The position numbers and the translations under genes are program-made. Shown here one piece after another: positions 3,001-55,292 of a stretch of DNA of 64,000 nt. The stretch's first letter is position 1. Each line of letters starts with the position of its first letter. The notes beneath the pieces were generated by a model. It saw nothing but the letters and a program-made list of their open reading frames with translations. It did no database searches and had not been told where the DNA came from. This stretch comes from Diprion similis (lineage: Eukaryota; Arthropoda; Insecta; Hymenoptera; Diprionidae), in assembly GCF_021155765.1 (NCBI RefSeq), contig NC_060110.1:25070001-25134000 (forward strand), written 5' to 3'.

Positions 3001-4116
3001 ATCGCCGGCTCGTCAGTGGAAAACGTTATTGCACAAATGCGGCAATTTGAAGAGCCGCCGTGTGCCGGCGGGGAGGGGTGGTGAGGTTCCAGACCGTCAA
3101 CAGGTTATGGAAGAGTGCCGCGAGCTTGCCGAATCTGCGCGTCTACATCGACACACTTGTAGTTTCAATTTTCGTTTCGACGAAATATTGGTCATAAGTC
3201 ATAACGATACGTAGCGTTGAATGTGTCATAAATAAACAGAACTCAATTTTAGCTTGAGATTCGAGACAGATTCAGACAGTAATTGAACGCGGGGGTCGTT
3301 CGGTCCCTTTTTCCAAAACGTGGGACAATTTCATTTTTTCACATGTTCTCGTTTACGTTAATCTGATATTATATACCGAACGTGAAAACTACGAGTATTA
3401 TTAGTATAATTGATATTGGTATTCAGAGTGTAATAATCAACATTAACAATGAGGAATGAGGAACAATGTGGTGTATACCATATATAATCTGTGTTGCCAT
3501 AATGAAGACTGTAGTCGATAAATCAACGTCCGAGTCCCGCGGGTGTGCGAGAGTGAAGGGTTAAAGGGGACGAGTGTGTTTTCCATCAATCTATGAGGAT
3601 GAGGTATTATATGCATTGTGGTCTCTGTATTGGGGCATAGATTGAAGAGCTGTATAGAATATGCGCCCGGACGTGATTAATCGTGGCGTATCATTATAGT
3701 GAGTACATGTATGTACAATGTATGAGTACATACATGGGTATGGATATGTATACTGCTGTGTGAAAATCGCGTTTGACAATAATATTAATCCTCTGCTATT
3801 CAACAAGTAATAATGAATCAATGCCGATCGATCAATAAAGAACTTTGTGGACCACTGTATATGAAGTTAACCACCATCGCGATCATGGTCTATGCTAAGC
3901 ACCCACATCGGCAACCTAGCTTGTATCGCGTGGGCTGTGAAGGGGCGCGATTCAGTTTTAATTGAAACACAAAAGCGAGTAACGAGGCATCGAGGCGGGA
4001 TTCAAAGGGTCGGGGATCCGCGAGGAAAGGAAAAGAAAGGCTTAGCCTCTGAGCTTAACAGCGCTGGGTAGTAGAAGGGTGTGGGGTTGGTATTTTAGAG
4101 AAAGATCCGAAACAGG
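1..4116. other. Upstream flank of the RGK gene; no confident coding sequence
   Basis: No supported coding gene is seen. Most of the stretch is AT-rich with short random open frames. From about 2,690 to 3,100 it becomes clearly GC-richer and carries a CATAAAAG TATA-like box near 2,885, so this may be promoter or 5' UTR sequence of the RGK gene. A pyrimidine/G-rich run ending in TTTTAG at 4,098 lies just before the coding start and could be the acceptor of a non-coding upstream exon. A short direct repeat (GACCGAAGTAC core) occurs at about 559 and 659. A minus-strand signal-peptide-like open frame at 2,711-2,818 is treated as a finding. Confidence 0.5.
4099..4116 (+). other. Possible 5' UTR start of the first RGK coding exon after a splice acceptor
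   Basis: GGTATTTTAG ends at 4098 and could be a 3' splice site, which would leave 18 bases of 5' UTR before the ATG. If so, transcription starts upstream, perhaps in the GC-rich stretch at 2,690-3,100. The tract is G-rich rather than strongly pyrimidine-rich, so this is tentative. Confidence 0.3.
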
Positions 4117-7100
4117 ATGGCGGTCAATAGCCCGGACTCTTACGGCAAGTCGCCAAAGAGCATCCGCCATTTACCACAGCCACCGCAAGCTTCGGGTCAA
4201 AAGAGTCCGACACAAAGGTACTCCGAGTCGACCAACTCAGAGTCGGGGGACTCGAACTCGGCAAAGACAAAGACGACCCGAACACCACGCACTTTTGATC
4301 TACCCACCAAATACTACCCACAAGTCGGGAGCGCCAAGTTCGACTGTGAGGAGTTCGGAGCTGCTGGATCGCCGGCAAACCCGGGGAAAAATCGCAACGG
4401 CGACAACACCGGAAACTACTTCACTTTCTCTGCCCCGAAGAGCCCTAACAGCCCGGAAAGTCCAAACGCCGGTCCTAGGACTCCAAGGACCCCCAGGACT
4501 CCCAAGAGTCCCAGCTGCGATGGGAGCGTGTTTAGTTCCCCAGGGTTTCCCTCGCCCTCGAACGTCTTCCAGTTCTGTAACGTCAGGAGGAACTTGAACA
4601 AGACCATGTCCTACCCGCCAAAGAGCCCCATCACTCCAACGGTATCGGGATCCCCGCATCTCGGACACAATCAGTATTCCAATTTCGGCCACGCAAAGAG
4701 CCAGACCCCCACGACTGGCAAAAAGCGACCCGAGCCGTTTGACCGCCGGCGTAGTTCCTGCTTCAATCTTGGCCCCAGGAGTCCGAGGAGTCCAAGAAGC
4801 CCGAGAAGCCCAATGTCCCCAACGATCGTTGCCCCGACCGGACCGAGTCCAATCGAGAGTCCAGAGGAACCGAAACTGCAAGTAGAATTTGGCGCCAAGA
4901 GTCCCAGGTCCCCGGGTCATGGACAAACGGCCAGGTTCGACTACGAAACTCCTCCTCGCCGTGGAAACTTTTCCTCCGGACAGTTCAATCGCAGCCAAGG
5001 ATGCCTCGCTGGAAAGGAGACTCTTGTCGACGCCAAACCCGGAAAGACCATGGCCCGCAGGTCCACGAGTGACCTGACCGACTTGACCGAAGCTGAGACC
5101 CAGGTTACCATGCTTTCAAGTCCCGCTGCTCGACGAAGGGGCTCGATGAAGGCAGGCTTGGGTAATAGTCTCCTTGATTCAGTAAATCCTTGTACTTCTT
5201 GTATCCATGCTGCCTATCCGAATCGTATAAACTTTGCTGAAACTGAAAGCCATTATATGAGTTAAAGATCACGAGGAGTTGTTTAAATATAGAGAAACCC
5301 TCGGAGGAGTGATTACAATTTTTGATCAGTAATTGGGAGATTTTCCGAGAAATTGGCACGAATCTAACAGTTGGGTTGACAGATCCCAAAATTTACCGAG
5401 TTACAACATGAAAAAATCTCCTCTACAATGCTCTACATTGGCTGAATTTTCACGTGAAGAAACTCACCTGAAATTATTTTCGTTACTTGTCTAAATGCCG
5501 ATAGCTCAGTTTCATCAAACTCTGAGTTCAGCGTGAGTTATGGCGTCCGTGTAAAGAAGTCAGAATGTCCAATAAGACCAAAGTACTTTCTGCCTGTGAC
5601 AGGCCAAAATGTTGTGGGAGTTTAATGAGGTTCAAGGTCCCACTTTCCTAAATTATGCCTAGATATGTATACCCTTTGCACATTACGCGCTCTTTACCCA
5701 CACCTTCGTCACAACTTAACACATTCGCTGGCACGTCAGTCATGTTGTAACACGGTATAGATGCCTATATGAAATAGGTTCAAGGAGAGGCGTGTATACC
5801 TATGTGTAGAGCGTGCATTAATCCGAATGACGTGAATTTGTCCTAAAGTGATGTTATCTTTTTACGATATTTAAAGCGCTTACATACCTATTAAACATAG
5901 TAATGTTCCGTGTCACGTCCCCTTCTTTGAACATTGCTAGAAAGAAACTCCTTTCACACCTGCCGGCTTCATCAAACGGAGCGGAAATTATATTTGGCAA
6001 TTCAGAGAGGAAATAAGGGTGACCAAGATTCGAGTTTCAAAAATAAAGTAATAATCAATGAATTTCAATCCTTCAGAGCATAGTTTTGTAATTCAATGGT
6101 CGTTTAACGTAATTTTCAATTCTTTCATGCAGCTTACCTGGCGTCACGACGCGGTTCAAGGGACAGTCAGGCGTCGAATTTGTCGAACGTGAGCAATGAG
6201 GACGTGGGCCCCCTCAATTTCACCGCTCACCCTCGAGGGCGACAGCGCAGGACATCAAATTTCCTCGAATTACCCGGTGAGCAGCTTGACACACAGTTTG
6301 ATGTCGTATTTTTTTAATTTCGATACCTAATGACACCTGCGCCACGTATGATTGACGTAAAAACGATAAATTGAGGGTGCGTTTGTACTAAGTAAATTAA
6401 TCACCACCGCAAGTGACATTTTTCAGCAGTTTTTTCTGCAATAGATCCTTTAACTCTTACAACACTTCACCCCAATTCTCTACAAAGTTTGACGTTGACA
6501 AGAAACCCAAAGTTTCGGAGAAAATTACAAGCACTCGACGCAATATCAAGAAAGAAAAAAAAATACTTTTTCACTCTGTAATCTTAAGGCACATTCAAAC
6601 GGATCAATTTTCGGTCGAGCTGGATATAACGTAAAGTTTCCTATATTTAAGCTGCAGTGTAGGCGACTCGATATGTGAATATTATATATCTGCCTCGTAG
6701 TTTGTGTATTGATACATAAATTATAATACCCATCCGGACCTTTTCAAACTCTACTACAGAGATTGGCACAAGCTCTTACCGACAATTAACAGATCGATAA
6801 GGTATATGATTGCACAGAGTGCGTGCTACGATATTCACAGTGATATAATACGCGTATTATCCCTGGACACACATTCCGAGCATACGTCGATCCGTTTTCC
6901 ACCTTATTTTTCCTTCCATTATTTGCCTTTCCCCTTCGTTCGGGCCACCCGTGAGAGAGAATTCCTTTCACCGCAATGACGCGCTGTAGACTCTTATAAA
7001 ATCAACGGTACACCGGCTCTTTGAACCCCCTCCAGCAGAAAAATTCAACGAAAATATAAGATGTCTACTACAAGTATATCTATATAGTATAACATTGGGC

Positions 7101-39555: not shown

Positions 39556-40634
39556 ATGTCTACCGCCGAAGAATGCTGCGAACTGAAAGGCGGACATCCC
39601 CCGGCAGGTAATAATTGAACGCATTTTCATACAATACCTTGTCGAAAATCCGAAAACCGGCAAGCAATCTTAGCCTCGTTTACGGATAATCAAATCACTT
39701 ACTCATCCCTCTGATACCTACATATGCGACAGTGCGCCGCACATTTGACGTTACACGTAGCGTACCTTGAGAAATATATACTTGTACCTATACACCTATA
39801 CGTCTGCCTTTTTATATTCCATGTATATTCCTTGTAAAGTAATGTAGTTCTATTTTCCAATTCGATTTTATACCATCGAAAATCTCTTCTAATACACGTC
39901 TTTCATTGTTATTTACAGTCAAAGCTGGTGGCATGAGGATAACCCAGCATAAAACTCCCAGGGAGGACCGAGAGGCTAAGCCGAGCAAGGAATCTGAGGA
40001 GGCCAAACCATCTACTAGGTCAATATCACAGAACCGTTCCAAATCTATGGAGATTTATTTTAACGCTTTTACTGGCAAGGATGCAAATATTTGTTTCATG
40101 TGCAAAAATCATCCGTGTATTGGAGTTTTTTTTTTTTTTTAAGTATTTAAAGAAAATGAGTGGCTGATCGAAGTGATCGACTAGACTTCTCTGGCATTAG
40201 CCAGTGAGTTTTTTCTCACAACCCTGGAGTATGCCATAAGGAGGTCGCACATTAGGGTTTACATTTCATATTTTCTTAAACATTCATGTCTTGTGTTTTC
40301 AACAATTCGAAGCATAAACAACCTTTAGAAAAATTTGGCCATTTTTTTTCCGATGCCTTAGACCTGCCGTTCAAAGCACATGACTCGTAATTTGGTCTGC
40401 CAGTGAAGTGGTTTATGAACTTTTTTATTTTAAGAGTTCTTTACACTGATAACAACCTTTCCTTTTCAATTTTTCAGCCCACCGAAAACAATGATGATTA
40501 GCGGAGCTCCTGCTAGAGGAAATGCAGATTTTCCACCTGAAGCAGTGCAAAATTTCCACGGGAAGCCAGCGCCGACTCATGATGCTCGTGCAGCTCACTC
40601 TCGTCCTAACATAATTCAACAGCCAAGGAAGTAA
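39556..40634 (+). CDS. Dap1: Death-associated protein 1 (DAP1) homologue
   Basis: Exons: 39556-39607, 39919-40018 and 40478-40634; the frames join and give 102 residues, the same length as human DAP1. The protein is basic, proline-rich and predicted disordered. Conserved blocks are GHPPAVKAGGMRI near the N-terminus, PSTSPPKTMMISG (SPPK-ISG core) in the middle, ARGNADFPPEAVQ, and the terminal IIQQPRK. In mammals DAP1 is an mTOR substrate that restrains autophagy when dephosphorylated; the central SPP site is the sort of residue concerned. That function is transferred by homology. The frame continues past the exon-2 donor into a poly-T stretch without homology, which supports splicing. Confidence 0.93.
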
Positions 40635-42071
40635 AAGTAATACTGAAAATAGCATCTTCATACTGACAAATGACATAGCTGGACTAACGGAAAGTAAAAA
40701 AAAACGAGAGGGAGAAAAATTTATGAAATTATTATAGTATCGCTATTTTAAAGTTGATTGAAAAAATGACAAAAGCAATTGAAACATCTTTATAATGTTT
40801 AATTCTCAGAAGACTAAATGATAGACATAAAAGAAGTCATAAAGTCCTTTGAGAATTACAATTTTTTGAAAGTCACACAACTCCTTAATACGTATGATGT
40901 TTTTTGTCAAAACAACTCAATATTCTGTTATCATATTTCAAATCCGTACTATTAAAAGGAAACAATATATGAATAAGGCTTTTGAAAATACGTTTATTCA
41001 AAGACGACATCTGCAATGATGTGAGGTCTTCTTCCAGACAGGTGATGATTTTTGGTGGTTTTTGTGTTCAGTTCAATACTGAAGACTTTGAGAGTTTATA
41101 ATGGTGTTGGCTATAAATTTGACAAGACTTTTATTTTTTACAAACAGGATACGAATGTCTAGCTTACGTGCTTAGATTATATGCATGTATGTTGCAACAT
41201 AACTTCAGGACATGCATGTTCTTTAATTGCACATTATTGTGTTTATATCAGGTGTAACATATACTTGATTTGCCTCGCAATATATAGACGATACGTACAA
41301 TTCACACATGTGCTTCAATATTGCAAGCATAGTGATTACTTCTTTTCTTATTTTGGGACCAATATCGAACAGAAAGTTATTATTACGAGTTTATTCCAGC
41401 CTTTCGTTACTTCATACTATGCATTTGATGCATTTATTATTATTATTGGTTTTTATTTTCAAATACATGTATGTATTTCTTTCGATGCTTGTTATTTCTG
41501 GTTATGGATTTACTTGGGCTAATTATTTGCACGTTCGTTTTTCTCAAAACAGCTGTTTTTATTTTTATTATAAATACACTGGTATATCTATATAAAAATA
41601 ATTAAAGATAATGTATGTACAATACTATGTTAATGATAAACAGATGAGCAATACGAATGTGTATTGATTGTGTGAAAAATGACAAATAATACAAATTATC
41701 TTGTAATTTATTTGTATGATTCTGTCTTAAAGGATGAATAAATAATTTTCCATACATTGACTGTTTTTCAAATGGATAAGTTAATCGTCATTTTAGATAA
41801 TATACAATTCTTCTGTTACGGTTTTAGTTGGTATTACTGAGCGGCATTGAGCATCGTTGTCATAGCAACCGCTATGTATCTTATAAATACAGTCCACATT
41901 GATGTGTCAACGGTTGAATAAAAAATACCTTCCACTCAAATCCCCTTGCTCATGTATGAAAATGTAATTGAAACTTTAGCTTTTATCGTTTATACTTGAA
42001 ATTTTTTGTCAAGATATTTGGTGATTTTTCTTATTCAATCAGCCTACCATACTCCTCATTTATTATCCAAC
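40635..42071. other. DAP1 3' region and ERK7 promoter interval
   Basis: Very AT-rich; candidate poly(A) signals AATAAA at 41,737-41,742 and 41,917-41,922. The X-box for ERK7 is at 41,856-41,869. Two overlapping open frames near 41,181-41,595 are low-complexity Phe/Tyr/Ile-rich and not believed coding. Confidence 0.5.
41856..41869 (+). promoter_or_regulatory. RFX X-box upstream of ERK7
   Basis: GTTGTCATAGCAAC is a full match to the X-box bound by RFX factors: GTnRYC half-site, two-base AT spacer and RGYAAC half-site. It ends 202 bases before the ERK7 start codon, in the range where X-boxes of ciliary genes lie. MAPK15/ERK7 acts at basal bodies and in cilium formation, so the pairing makes biological sense. 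Sequence match is direct; use by RFX is inferred. Confidence 0.7.
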
Positions 42072-45000
42072 ATGTCTGGTAAAAGCAGTATGGAAAAGGT
42101 ATCTGAAATCGACACACATGTCACTAAGCAGTATGACATTATTCGCAGGCTCGGCAAAGGGGTGAGTTCATAATTTTATATTGTTTCATCATTATAAATG
42201 CCTCTTTCCACAATTTCCGTTTGATTATTGCAATTCAATTTTCTGTGATTCGAATGGTTGATTCTACGGTCATGTTGTACGTTCAAAATTTCAGGCTTAC
42301 GGAATCGTCTGGAAAGCAGTAGACAAGCGGTCCAAAGAGACTGTAGCAGTAAAAAAGATTTTCGATGCATTCCGGAACCAAACAGATGCTCAGCGTACCT
42401 TTCGTGAAATTATGTTCTTATTATCATTTGCTAACCATGAAAATATTATCCAACTCATAGGACTGCACAAGGCAAACAACAACAAGGACATTTACCTTGT
42501 CTTTGAATACATGGGTGAGAATTTTTCATCATCGTCACCTGGTACTCCATTCAATTTTCAAGTTAATTAAAGAAATTGTCGTGTCACGTGTATCGCTTTA
42601 TTATTTGCAGAAACTGATTTACACAATGTGATAAAGCGGGGTAACATTTTGAAGGACATTCACAAGGTGTTCATAATGTACCAGCTGTTCAAGGCAATTA
42701 AATACATCCATTCAGGAAACGTAATACACAGAGATTTGAAGGTAATTTGTGCCTGCAGTTTCTAGTACCTCGAACAATCCTTAATTTCCTTGTCAACCAT
42801 CCATCACTCTTACTTTCCAGCCATCGAATATTCTCCTTAACGCGCAATGTCATTGCAAAATTGCTGACTTTGGGTTGGCTAGATCTGTTACTCAGATATG
42901 CGAAGGTGATAGGGAATCGGGAAGCGATCCGACACTCACGGATTACGTCGCCACTCGCTGGTACAGAGCACCAGAGATCCTTATTGCATCGAAGCGGTAA
43001 GAATTTGAATTAGTTATAGCTATGAGTTTGTCTTTGGCAGATGTGTATGTGTTTAAATTGATTCTATATCGCTAGTATGCTTCAGGTACACAAAAGGCAT
43101 AGACATGTGGTCTCTGGGATGCATTTTAGGTGAAATGCTACTAGGAAAACCTCTTTTTCCTGGTTCTTCTACGATAAATCAGGTAGAAAGGATAATGGGG
43201 ACTTTGCCACATCCTACAGAAGAAGGTAATAAACATTCGGATTTCGTAGTTATTCAAAGTTTCCATGGGTGAACTATGGATGAAACTATATTTTGAGCAT
43301 AAAAGTAATTTCTCACGAATATTTGTTTCATTTTTCACTCAGATTTAAACTCCGTTAGCGCAGGATATGGTACCAATTTATTAGAGAAGACGCCAGCGGG
43401 TCCACGCCGCTCTATTAGAGATCTTCTGCCAAATGTTTCTGAGAGTGCAATAAATCTAATAAATAAATTAATTGTCTTTAATCCTAATCGCAGACTAACT
43501 GCAATTGAGGCATTAGAACATCCGTATGTTGCCGAGTAAGTTTGCACAAAATTTGTTAAGAACAGAGTGTCAAGATTAGTTTTCAAGGTTTTATTTCAAA
43601 TATTTGCAGTTTTCATACTAAAGGCAATGAGCCAGAAAGGGGATCGAACGTTGTACCTTTGCTCAGAGACGACGTGCAGTTATCGGTAGATGATTATAGA
43701 AACAAACTTTATGCTATGATGGATGAAAAGCACAAAAAACACAACAATATGTAAGTCTGACGCCTGCTATTTTCTCTCAACAGTAAGTGGCAATGACTGA
43801 ACAGTTGAAATGTACATGCCAATTAACTTACGATCAATCAGGTCAAAATCTAGGATCAGAAGGCTGTCAGAACACATTCGGAAGGAGACTAGCAGCGCTG
43901 TTGGTCAAGGAGATGGAACTGCAAAAAAAGGTCTTCATTTATCATATGACGATCTACGCAAGGACAAAATCCGAGCTGAAGCCTACAAACAGCCACAAAG
44001 TGAGAACCATGGTATGAATGAAACTGGTGAAATTCGACTTATCATTCAAATTATTGAGAATAATTGAAAAATACTTTCACCATTTACATTAAGGCCAACC
44101 TGCCGTAACTAAAAAGTTGAATGGTTCAACGTATATAAATGGAAATGGTCGGAATGGAAAACCACAGTTAGTTAATGTGGATGTAATGGTGGGTGATAGA
44201 GCTTCGCTGCAAAATGGTACGTAATATTTGAGGATGATAGAAGATTATTCAGTTGCAATGGAAAAGAACTTTATTGTTTATATACAAATGTACATGACAA
44301 AGATAAAGACCATGAAGCGAAAGATATATTGCACATGATTTCAGGGAGAAATTCAGCAGCACATTATGCGTACAATCTGATGAATGGTCCATTCAAAAAC
44401 CTTCCTCCAGGCCAAGCAAAGAGCTGTTTATACTTGAGCCAACAACATAATTTGTCTAAATCTCAACGTTCGATACAATCAGACCAAGTAACTCTCGTAA
44501 GTCACAACCTTCATCTTTCCACTTCTTGCTGTTAGTTATTTTCATTCTTACAGGTAGATTATGTTCTAATTTCACCACTTGCAGATAGAATACCGAATCT
44601 AAGGTGTAGTACGAAAATTCAATCTTATAAAGATGTACCTACTGTGATCAAAACGACGTATTAATAAAAACCCTGCAGTATTCTATCTGCTTACTCAATT
44701 ATGATGCTGAAAAAGGCAAATCAAGCTTTACAGAATTTTGTACATTGGAGATAGATGCTTTTTTTTATTTTTTCATCTCTTGTTTGATTAGTATAAATTA
44801 AAATACTATTATTACAGGTGACTTGTCGTATGGGATTCATTTAGGTACTGTAATTTTTTTTTTATACAGATTACCGTGCCTGCATGTACGCTGTACAATA
44901 AAGCTTGCACCACATATATTTTTGCAACAATATCATATTATCATACATTGCAAATAGCTTATTACTAGATAAGCAAGTCATCAAGTAATGAAATCTGAAA

Positions 45001-45986
45001 TCAAACATGGTCACGATATGTTTGTACGAAAATTATATTGTTCAGATAGATGGCGTAATAATTGTCATGACTAAGTACAACAAAAATCTCATAAGTACAA
45101 CCGCATTTTGATGTCCTAAAGCTATGCTAAGAGTTTATGGAATTTTTCTTATACTTCCGAGTTTTCATGAATATCTTATTTAATAGAAAAAAAAAGTTTC
45201 CTGCCACAACTTCGGACCTCTGTAAATAACTCACAATTCGTTTATTTGGAGTAAAAATAGGCACATCTGATAAAAAATATCATAGTTTTTAGCGGAAATA
45301 ACAATGCTTCTTACATGTTGGCAATGCATTACATTTATTGATAACACTATATCACTTATTGTTTCTGAAAGATATTGTGTGGTATTTTTCAGTATGGTCC
45401 AAGCGGTCGACTTGGTCTGCAATCGAATCAACAAAAGCTACGACGTAATACAAAACCACAGCTAGTACACAGAACGCCACCAGCAAATAATAATAATCTG
45501 CAAACAAAAGTAAATCTACCGAAGCGCATGAATCAAGATAGTCCAACGAATGCCAAATACCTCACAAAAATGCCAAATAATTTTACAAAACACTTTGCAA
45601 CTTCACACCATTCCACATCCCAGAATCAAACAATTCAAAATTATTTCAATCAAACTATGCCTGTGCATTTGCAGAGGGAGCGAATTTCCACTGGCCAAAT
45701 TAAAAACACTACTTATAGCAATCGTCCAACTGCAGAATGCATAAGCAATATCAGCAACTACATCCATAATACAAATTCTGTTTCTGGGTCGTTAGATAAT
45801 CATAATAGAGTAAGAAGCGCAGTGGTTCGTGCTCAAACGGCTAAGAATCATTTGAGGCATAATGCTATTCAGAAACCAATAACTACAATTAGAAATTTCA
45901 GATCTCTAAATAGCTACAATCAAAGTCATGGGACGATTACAGCCTCTGCATATAAAGATTTGAAGAATGGTAATATCCGGTGGTAA
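42072..45986 (+). CDS. Erk7: Atypical MAP kinase ERK7 / MAPK15
   Basis: Exons: 42072-42161, 42295-42514, 42611-42741, 42821-42996, 43086-43225, 43343-43535, 43610-43750, 43842-44011, 44094-44216, 44345-44496 and 45393-45986, giving 709 residues for the long form. The kinase domain shows the Gly-loop GKGAYG (28-33), VAVKK with Lys50, HRDLKPSN with Asp145, DFGLARS with Asp163, an activation loop TDY (187-189) followed by [10 protein letters not shown], and [11 protein letters not shown]. The activation motif is TDY rather than the TEY of mammalian MAPK15. A long basic, Asn/Gln/Ser-rich tail follows, as in this atypical class, which phosphorylates itself and is controlled partly by its tail and turnover. 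Known roles of the family are ciliogenesis, autophagy and control of secretion under starvation. A shorter form using the exon at 44554-44664 is described separately. The closest alternative, a classical ERK, is excluded by the [14 protein letters not shown] and [20 protein letters not shown] signatures and the tail. Confidence 0.94.
44554..44664 (+). CDS. Erk7: Alternative last exon of ERK7 (short isoform)
   Basis: Exon 10 ends in phase 0 at 44496. A good acceptor (TTCTTACAG) at 44553 opens an in-frame stretch, [18 protein letters not shown] and onwards, ending in TAA at 44662-44664. An AATAAA poly(A) signal overlaps that stop (44663-44668). Using this exon gives 548 residues; skipping it to 45393 gives 709. 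The two ends are mutually exclusive, because this exon has a stop and no in-phase donor. Conservation is unknown, but the acceptor, frame and poly(A) signal together make it credible. Confidence 0.55.
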   Translation, partial: VDYVLISPLADRIPNLRCSTKIQSYKDVPTVIKTTY

Positions 45987-52300: not shown

Positions 52301-55292
52301 TGAATTCTTAAATGCAGCTCTTTCAATATGCTGTGATCCTTGTAAACATGAAAATTAATTTATCCAATCTTTTAATTACTTGGAAATAATGAGAAATGAG
52401 CTGTTTGTGAAATAAGAAAAACGTGTACAATATCAACCCAGTTTTTCTATATTTCCCATTGACAATCTCTTTTTTCACCAAACAACGGAATTGATTCTCT
52501 TTCTGTTACAGGTGTTTCCTGATGAATTTCACTTACAAACTCTGAATGCGTTTCTGAAATCATGTGCCGAGCTGCAAAATGGCGTAAATGTTAAGAACAT
52601 CATTATTTCATTGATTGACAGACTGGCTGCTTTCAGTCAGCGATCAGATGGGGTTGGTGGACCAGGAAGCCCAAGTCAACTTCAAGGAATTCCGACAGAT
52701 GTCAAACTGTTTGATGTATTTAGTGACCAAGTGGCGACTATCATACAGGTAATAAACCAAATAAATCGTAAATTTTTACAATATTGAACCGGATCAAAAG
52801 TCTTGAAAGTTTGAACTCGTCAATAGCATATGTGAAATAACTGTAGGTTTTATTTGAGATGTGAAAGAAAGAGGAAGTTTGTAACGTATATCCTGGATGA
52901 AAAGGAGAACTGTTATATTTTAATGTATGATATAATTCAAATCGCTAAATACAATTTATGGAATCGGTAAGATTGCAATAATTCGCCGATTTTTTGAACC
53001 CACAAAATTCTCAAGTCGTTCTGTGATGACCAGATACTACATGTTGTACTCGTTACTGAAAATTACCATGATTTTATATCCTAAACAATACTTACTCATC
53101 TAGTTTAAGTCTGAGAACAATGAAAATTTTGTGAATTGAACTCTGTTTACTTATACCATCAGAAATTGTAGACAAACAGCAGAGAAACCTCAAAGAAACC
53201 TTAGTGAGACCAACGCATGCTCGAAATTCATGTGTGAGCTTCTCGCTAGTAATCACTGCCGAGGCTTGCGCACATAGTCTGAATGTGTATTGGTTCAACT
53301 ATAGTTTGATTGAGTGAAGAAACGGTGGCAAGCAAAAAAAAAATTTAGCAAAATACTCGATGTTTTTTTCGTTTGTCTCCCTGTCCTTATATGGAAAAGA
53401 AAAAATAATAGGCCCCATTATCTCACAATTAAGTAAACAGCAGATAGTATTGTCAACTTCATACATACATATACTAAGGTCATGTGTATTTCAACACACT
53501 CTTCATTTATCATTTTCTCACAGACCAGGCAAGACATGCCACCCGAAGACATTGTGTCGCTCCAAGTAGCGCTCATCAATTTAGCGCACAAGTGTTATCC
53601 AGACAGAGTTGATTACATCGACAAGGTTTTGTCAACCACAGTGCAAATATTCCAAAAGCTCAACATTGAAAGGTCAGTAAGAAGACTATCAGGTTCGTTT
53701 TTCCGAACGTTATTTTCAGTTTATTGTAACAGTAGACGTCAATCGATTCTAATGTCCGACTAAAAAGTTCTCAGGTTTAACGGTTCACGTTTTTGTGTCC
53801 CATAGATTAGAATACAATAGTGCAGTTTCGAGGGAATTATCTAGGCTGATGAAAATACCTGTCGATAACTATAAGAACATACTGACAGTTTTGAAACTTG
53901 AACATTTTGCGCCACTTTTGGAATACTTCGACTATGAAGGAAGGAAATCATTGGCTGTTTACATAATCACGAATATCTTGGACAATGAAACTCTGATACC
54001 TGCGCAAGAACAAGTCGACGCGGTGCTTTCAATGGTGTCTCCTCTGGTTCAAGACCAACCAGACCAACCAACTATCGAAGAAGATCCCGAAGATTTTGCC
54101 GAAGAACAAGGCCTTCTTGGTAGACTGATTCATCATTTTAAATCCGAAACTGCCGATCAGCAGTACATGATTTTGAGTGCAGCTAGAAAACATTTCAGTA
54201 CTGGTGGAAATAAGAGAATCAAGTATACTCTCCCGCCAATCGTGTTTCAGGCTTATCAGCTGGCTTTTACCTACAAGAGCCTGAAAGATCAAGTGAGCCA
54301 TTATTCATTCGTTCGACCTAATTATTCTGGACGGCTTGATATTTTAGTCCGACAATCTGAGAGAAAAGTTCTAGTTTTTTGACTATTCATTCCAGGATGA
54401 TGTGTGGCAGAAAAAGTGTCAGAAAATCTTCCAATTCTGTCATGTGACAATTACTGCATTAATGAAAGCTGAGCTTGCCGAACTTCCACTTCGGCTTTTT
54501 CTCCAAGGAGCCATTGCTATCGGTGAAATTCGCTTTGATAACTTTGAAACAGTCGCTTATGAATTTATGAGTCAAGCTTTCTCCATTTACGAAGATGAGA
54601 TTAGCGATTCAAAAGCCCAGTTAGCTGCCATTACACTTATAATCGCAACTTTCGAACAAATGAGTTGCTTTTCCGAAGAGAATGCCGAACCAGTTAGAAA
54701 CCAGTGTGCGCTTTATGCTAGCAAGTTACTGAAGAAACCAGATCAATGCAGAGGGGTTTCTACTTGTTCGCACATATTCTGGTCTGGAAAGTCAATTGCC
54801 ACTGATGGCAAAGAGGTATGTTCTCCCATTTACGCCATGTGTTAATTAGATACAGATACGTCATATGATCATACCATTCGCATTCTTCTAGATGCAAGAT
54901 GGGAACAAAGTACTGGATTGCTTGAAAAAGGGAATCAGAATAGCAAGCCAGTGCATGGATACTTCTGTCCAGGTTCAACTTTTTGTTGAATTGCTTAATC
55001 ATTATATCTACTTCTACGAAAAAGGAAATACAGCGGTAAGATGATGCGGGTATTATTTACAACGTATGGATACTCGCCAAATAAATCATTTTGAAAACCA
55101 ACATTATTTCAGTTGAGCGTACAAATTTTGAACCAAGTGATCGCCAAGATAAGAGAGGAATTGCCAAACCTCGAAGTTAGCGAAGAAACTGAACAGATCC
55201 AAAAACATTTAGCAAATACTCTAGAGCACCTTCGGAACCGGATGGAGTCTCCCGAATCGGAAGGTCCATCATATCAAGGTCTCGTACTGTAA
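49319..55292 (+). CDS. Vps35: Retromer subunit VPS35
   Basis: Proposed exons: 49319-49321, 50869-51067, 51249-51372, 51473-51668, 51895-52089, 52193-52276, 52512-52748, 53524-53672, 53806-54292, 54396-54815, 54892-55035 and 55113-55292; 805 residues (human 796). The first exon gives only the Met codon before GTGAGC, making the start MPMTPTMTG; an ATG at 50872 would serve if that exon is wrong. The N-terminal half holds [27 protein letters not shown] (the VPS26-binding PRLYL motif), [19 protein letters not shown] and [19 protein letters not shown]. The C-terminal half holds [32 protein letters not shown] and [19 protein letters not shown], and ends [14 protein letters not shown]. It is an alpha-solenoid scaffold that with VPS26 and VPS29 sorts receptors from endosomes to the Golgi or cell surface. 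Homology is near-continuous, so identity is certain; the one-codon first exon is less so. Confidence 0.95.
51068..51248 (+). other. U12-type (minor spliceosome) intron in VPS35
   Basis: The donor is GTATCCTTT, the exact GT-AG U12 5' splice site consensus. A branch-like TTTTCCTGAT lies at 51,224-51,233 with its A 16 bases before the AG end, inside the 10-20 base window of U12 introns; it differs from TTCCTTRAC at the centre. The acceptor (CATCAATAG) lacks a polypyrimidine tract, as expected. The split codon makes the Tyr in YYEL-YMAI, conserved in VPS35. Confidence 0.75.

Follow-up and report, generated by a model that had tools for sequence, protein, structure and literature searches.

The window, by which we mean the whole stretch of 64,000 nt analysed here, carries on its plus strand a gene for the kinase ERK7/MAPK15 with a 14-mer of the X-box class shortly before its start codon. 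Upstream, the neighbour of ERK7 in the same orientation is a DAP1-like gene (death-associated protein; 39921-40634; Pfam DAP, 2.5e-16 for its last exon); an identity as Jupiter/HN1 was considered for this gene and rejected, as Pfam gives DAP1. Downstream of ERK7 lies a VPS35 exon at 53753-54382 (Pfam, 7.7e-39). Elsewhere in the window, a 388-aa open frame at 4099-5262 is rich in S-P-R repeats (KSPRSPRSP-like) and has no Pfam match at E 0.01. The features around the X-box are as follows.

41856..41869, plus strand: X-box GTTGTCATAGCAAC; top matrix score of the window, 18.7 bits; fits GYTRYY N1-3 RRHRAC

41870..42071, plus strand: stretch from the X-box to the start codon, presumably core promoter and 5' UTR; boundaries approximate

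41882..41887, plus strand: TATAAA, possible core-promoter element, 12 bp 3' of the X-box; ATAAATA, which overlaps it, agrees with the loose forkhead core RYMAAYA

42072..43754, plus strand: kinase-domain exons of ERK7/MAPK15, interrupted by introns; exon 1 at 42072-42161, Pfam Pkinase in the exon at 42821

43840..45986, plus strand: exons probably encoding the C-terminal tail of ERK7 (tentative), the final open frame being 45369-45986

The joined exons of the kinase gene find their best solved relative in 6v6a (469 bits over 349 residues) and the next in 3oz6 (416 bits), which we take to be Toxoplasma ERK7 and an ERK7-like apicomplexan kinase, respectively. The kinase core alone scores 402 bits against 6v6a and 360 bits against 3oz6, whereas the other MAP kinase chains among the matches listed, including ERK1/2, reach at most 261 bits. 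The activation loop reads TDY. The sequence-only reading had named the kinase ERK7/MAPK15, and this identification holds. No Pfam match was obtained for the tail frame at 45369-45983. The start codon is placed at 42072, and in-frame ATGs further upstream end in stops.

The X-box is an exact 14-mer on the plus strand, composed of the half-sites GTTGTC and AGCAAC with a 2-bp spacer. It matches the restricted fly X-box consensus GYTRYY N1-3 RRHRAC on both strands, and likewise RYYNYY N1-3 RRNRAC. The earlier description of a perfect RFX X-box is accurate as to sequence and position, but "perfect" claims too much: the first half-site and GTTGCT, the reverse complement of the second, are identical at four of six positions, and the palindromy is limited to the outer GTTG/CAAC. 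The site does not match the tighter form RTNRCC N1-3 RGYAAC, which in the accessible text of PMC2375033 is one of five alternative consensuses and no requirement. Its first half-site agrees with GTTGYCA, given in the accessible part of PMC10530576 as the consensus common to RFX motifs. From the X-box to the ATG we measure 202 bp, in keeping with the distance of about 200 bp claimed before, and the site is promoter-proximal with the start codon, rather than the transcription start site, as reference. A forkhead co-motif beside the X-box was considered and rejected, as the single match to RYMAAYA compares with 0.9 expected by shuffling (a weak result), a frequency about that of shuffled sequence.

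Sites in the window were scored with a matrix derived from the X-boxes of fly genes whose expression falls in dRfx mutants, 14 pairs with one box from D. melanogaster and one from D. pseudoobscura, as tabulated in PMC2375033. The rows kept were those whose boxes are good inverted repeats; two rows, CG12548 and CG13178, were left out, as were additional boxes in other rows. With 18.7 bits, the ERK7 site falls within the range of the fly training sites (13.3-23.2 bits), and the runner-up in the window scores 15.6 bits. In first-order simulation, equally good sites arise at 0.09 per 64 kb, and such a site was present in 7 of 100 simulated windows. Counting the exact 14-mer with up to two mismatches is unremarkable, with one found in 64 kb and 0.67 expected. 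In 12 of the 14 rows used, the D. melanogaster boxes lie 60-321 bp 5' of the ATG, the other two being at 2,731 and -22 in the accessible table.

The genome scan covered 269 Mb in 60 contigs, of which the listed ones reach 28 Mb. An RFX factor is encoded in this genome: matches to the RFX DNA-binding domain (PF02257) exceed the cut-off at three places, although the number of genes may differ from this count. For the strict motif form GTTGYCNNRGCAAC, 75 hits were counted over both strands (42 + 33), at 57 distinct places, namely the window and 56 other loci. These loci, of 1.6-4 kb, were scanned by script for frames and start codons and judged by eye, with Pfam applied to selected frames. For the frames in the loci a codon score outdid a hexamer score; the latter, trained on few genes, was overfitted, found almost nothing and was dropped.

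Four of the 57 places lie 13-202 bp 5' of the start codon of a gene recognised as ciliary. Most of the 57 carry no gene assignment. Apart from ERK7, the genes are BROMI/TBC1D32 (locus L008), with the strict X-box 146 bp before the ATG (Pfam BROMI, 9.9e-21); DNAAF5/HEATR2 (locus L045, 1994-2076), at 68 bp (Pfam TPR_DNAAF5, 1.7e-72); and TMEM231 (locus L035, 1332-1514), where the site reads GTTGCCTAGACAAC in gene direction and lies 13 bp before the ATG (Pfam TM231, exon 1 at 1.7e-7 over profile positions 1-47, a later exon at 2.2e-7). We take BROMI/TBC1D32 to be a ciliary gene and TMEM231 to be a ciliary gene of the transition zone. The accessible part of PMC8947470 lists TMEM231 under cilium assembly; MAPK15, TMEM231, RFX2 and RFX3 are merely co-listed there, among genes of pathways raised in patients' ciliated cells.

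On the assumption of 400 ciliary genes, each allotted 250 bp, 0.02 of the 57 places would be expected at ciliary promoters, and three or more among the 56 places other than ERK7 would have a probability of about 1.5e-6, both values depending on an assumed gene number, on a distance picked after seeing the data and on genes recognised partly by eye. Five loci of the reversed control were read, by eye and without Pfam, and none of the five sites lay at a promoter recognised as ciliary. The strict form thus marks ciliary genes under these assumptions, yet only five loci of the reversed control entered the comparison and the B9 genes, considered below, do not follow the pattern. The earlier proposal that ERK7 belongs to the RFX-driven ciliary regulon in this lineage gains support, short of proof, from the four strict X-boxes at ciliary start codons and from the RFX domains encoded in the genome.

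The most serious alternative is that a 14-mer of the X-box class stands near ERK7 by luck and has no function. In its favour, motifs of this class show no clear excess over reversed controls across the 269 Mb, in narrow or wide forms: the exact 14-mer has three hits and its reversed control three, one narrow form has 10 against 6, and the wider forms have 75 against 73 (the strict form above), 905 against 922, 65 against 83 and 340 against 474. The comparison is low in power, because the true sites may number a few dozen while the hits run into hundreds, and the position of sites relative to genes is more telling than genome-wide enrichment. The accessible text of PMC2375033 also lends the alternative weight, since in flies a single-species X-box is stated there not to predict dRFX dependence. 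Against a chance match stand the rarity of sites as good as this one in simulated windows and the four ciliary promoters among the 57 strict places, and we regard it as improbable.

The B9 domain has six matches in three neighbourhoods, which we take as three B9 genes, and none of the three has a strict site (1- or 2-bp spacer) within 400 kb. This miss is weak evidence, since of 14 target sites per fly species the strict 1-/2-bp-spacer forms recover just 4 in D. melanogaster and 5 in D. pseudoobscura. Non-ciliary genes with strict sites probably exist, with one to three candidates. At locus L051 the site lies 238 bp before the ATG, the start codon being uncertain, of a gene that appears by eye to be choline-transporter-like and non-ciliary, with no Pfam support. 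At loci L040 (thioredoxin by eye) and L054 (HAD hydrolase; Pfam, 2e-9), as at L037 (no Pfam match), a coding-like frame begins roughly 0.2-0.6 kb downstream of the site, with start codons uncertain; L037 is not counted among the candidates. Strict sites also occur inside coding sequence, in L001 (helicase) and L044 (ERp29-like), and the L041 site lies across a frame that holds a zinc finger. No useful match came from the frames in L066 and L027.

Several further observations were made in the scanned loci. Upstream of BROMI, the next gene in the same orientation is TBCK-like by eye, its RabGAP-TBC match falling short of the Pfam cut-off (L008, 1-2640, also L014), so that two TBC-type genes may be neighbours there. 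Paired X-box-like sites about 250-350 bp apart occur at G000:C2:11623862-11624119 and G000:C10:7951385-7951741, the latter pair in a G+C-rich stretch (L053); these pairs could possibly belong to further RFX-controlled genes. No coding exon was recognised near the strict X-boxes in L004, L005 and L007. The perfect palindrome GTTGCCATGGCAAC is present in L004 and L007, and the L004 and L005 stretches are G+C-rich.

The gene downstream of the X-box, ERK7 by its sequence, has an established place in cilium biology. In PMC10425847, MAPK15 is a conserved ciliogenesis kinase and belongs to the core of basal bodies in the chordotonal neurons and sperm of flies; it is recruited there when ciliogenesis begins and centrioles become basal bodies, and its depletion harms fly sensory cilia and sperm flagella. 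That system concerns the same gene, and the promoter X-box is the new detail here; the main text of PMC10425847 mentions neither RFX nor X-boxes. Among the papers accessible to our literature search, supplements excluded, we found no report of RFX, X-box or DAF-19 control of MAPK15/Erk7/mapk-15 (C05D10.2) and no account of the transcriptional control of MAPK15.

Two further systems offer a comparison. The dRFX targets of Drosophila, as presented in the accessible parts of PMC2375033, resemble the ERK7 site in the consensus GYTRYY N1-3 RRHRAC, in the distance to the ATG and in the ciliary gene downstream. They differ in that the predictor there is conservation in two species, whereas the site described here is known from one species; Erk7/CG32703 appears neither in the text or Table 3 of that screen nor in its 83-gene restricted list, the 412-gene supplement lying outside this scope. 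The second system is DNAAF5/HEATR2, the same gene that carries a strict X-box at L045. In the accessible part of PMC4168999, this gene is Rfx-dependent in fly chordotonal neurons, and its vertebrate X-boxes lie near the start; like ERK7, it is a ciliary gene with a near-palindromic X-box not far from its start. For HEATR2, in contrast to the ERK7 site, which is read from sequence, experiments have shown that the gene depends on Rfx in flies and that RFX3 binds in mouse cells.

A quite unlikely alternative is that RFX binds the ERK7 site on behalf of a non-ciliary role of the kinase, such as broad or stress-related expression, and that the X-box is no mark of the ciliary regulon. Such roles have been proposed for vertebrate MAPK15, but are also doubted, in the accessible text of PMC10425847, and the three domain matches in the genome leave room for more than one RFX-domain gene. 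The same source reports, on the other side, that MAPK15 has been lost in non-ciliated species, and three other genes with the same motif form shortly before their start codons are ciliary. That the X-box serves a gene other than ERK7 is very improbable: its near symmetry would allow it to work in both directions, but the DAP1-like gene lies on the same strand and its frame, with the stop at 40632-40634, ends some 1.2 kb short of the motif, and there is no minus-strand frame of at least 130 aa in between, which makes ERK7 the natural target.

We therefore favour the reading of the ERK7 motif as a genuine promoter-proximal RFX binding site, a prediction from the sequence to which we assign a probability of roughly 0.8. 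An insect RFX protein would bind the inverted repeat as a dimer and contribute to activating ERK7/MAPK15 along with further ciliary genes. We infer that this activation would take place in cilium-building cells, that is in ciliated sensory neurons and perhaps in male germ cells, where the ERK7 protein would then act at basal bodies. A more far-reaching version appears doubtful, namely that RFX directly activates ERK7 in this lineage as ciliogenesis begins, alongside TMEM231, BROMI and the dynein-assembly gene DNAAF5, with expression essentially restricted to ciliated cells and any other roles secondary.

The interpretation of the ERK7 X-box as an RFX site is probably right, if ordinary. As MAPK15 is known as a core basal-body kinase, its control by RFX is to be expected, and because the field would anticipate such control of a core ciliogenesis kinase, the finding is of moderate import. 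A strict X-box scan of a single unannotated insect genome nevertheless recovers ciliary genes. If the site is a direct RFX site, ERK7 would share its switch with other ciliary genes, a relationship open to a simple test in insects.
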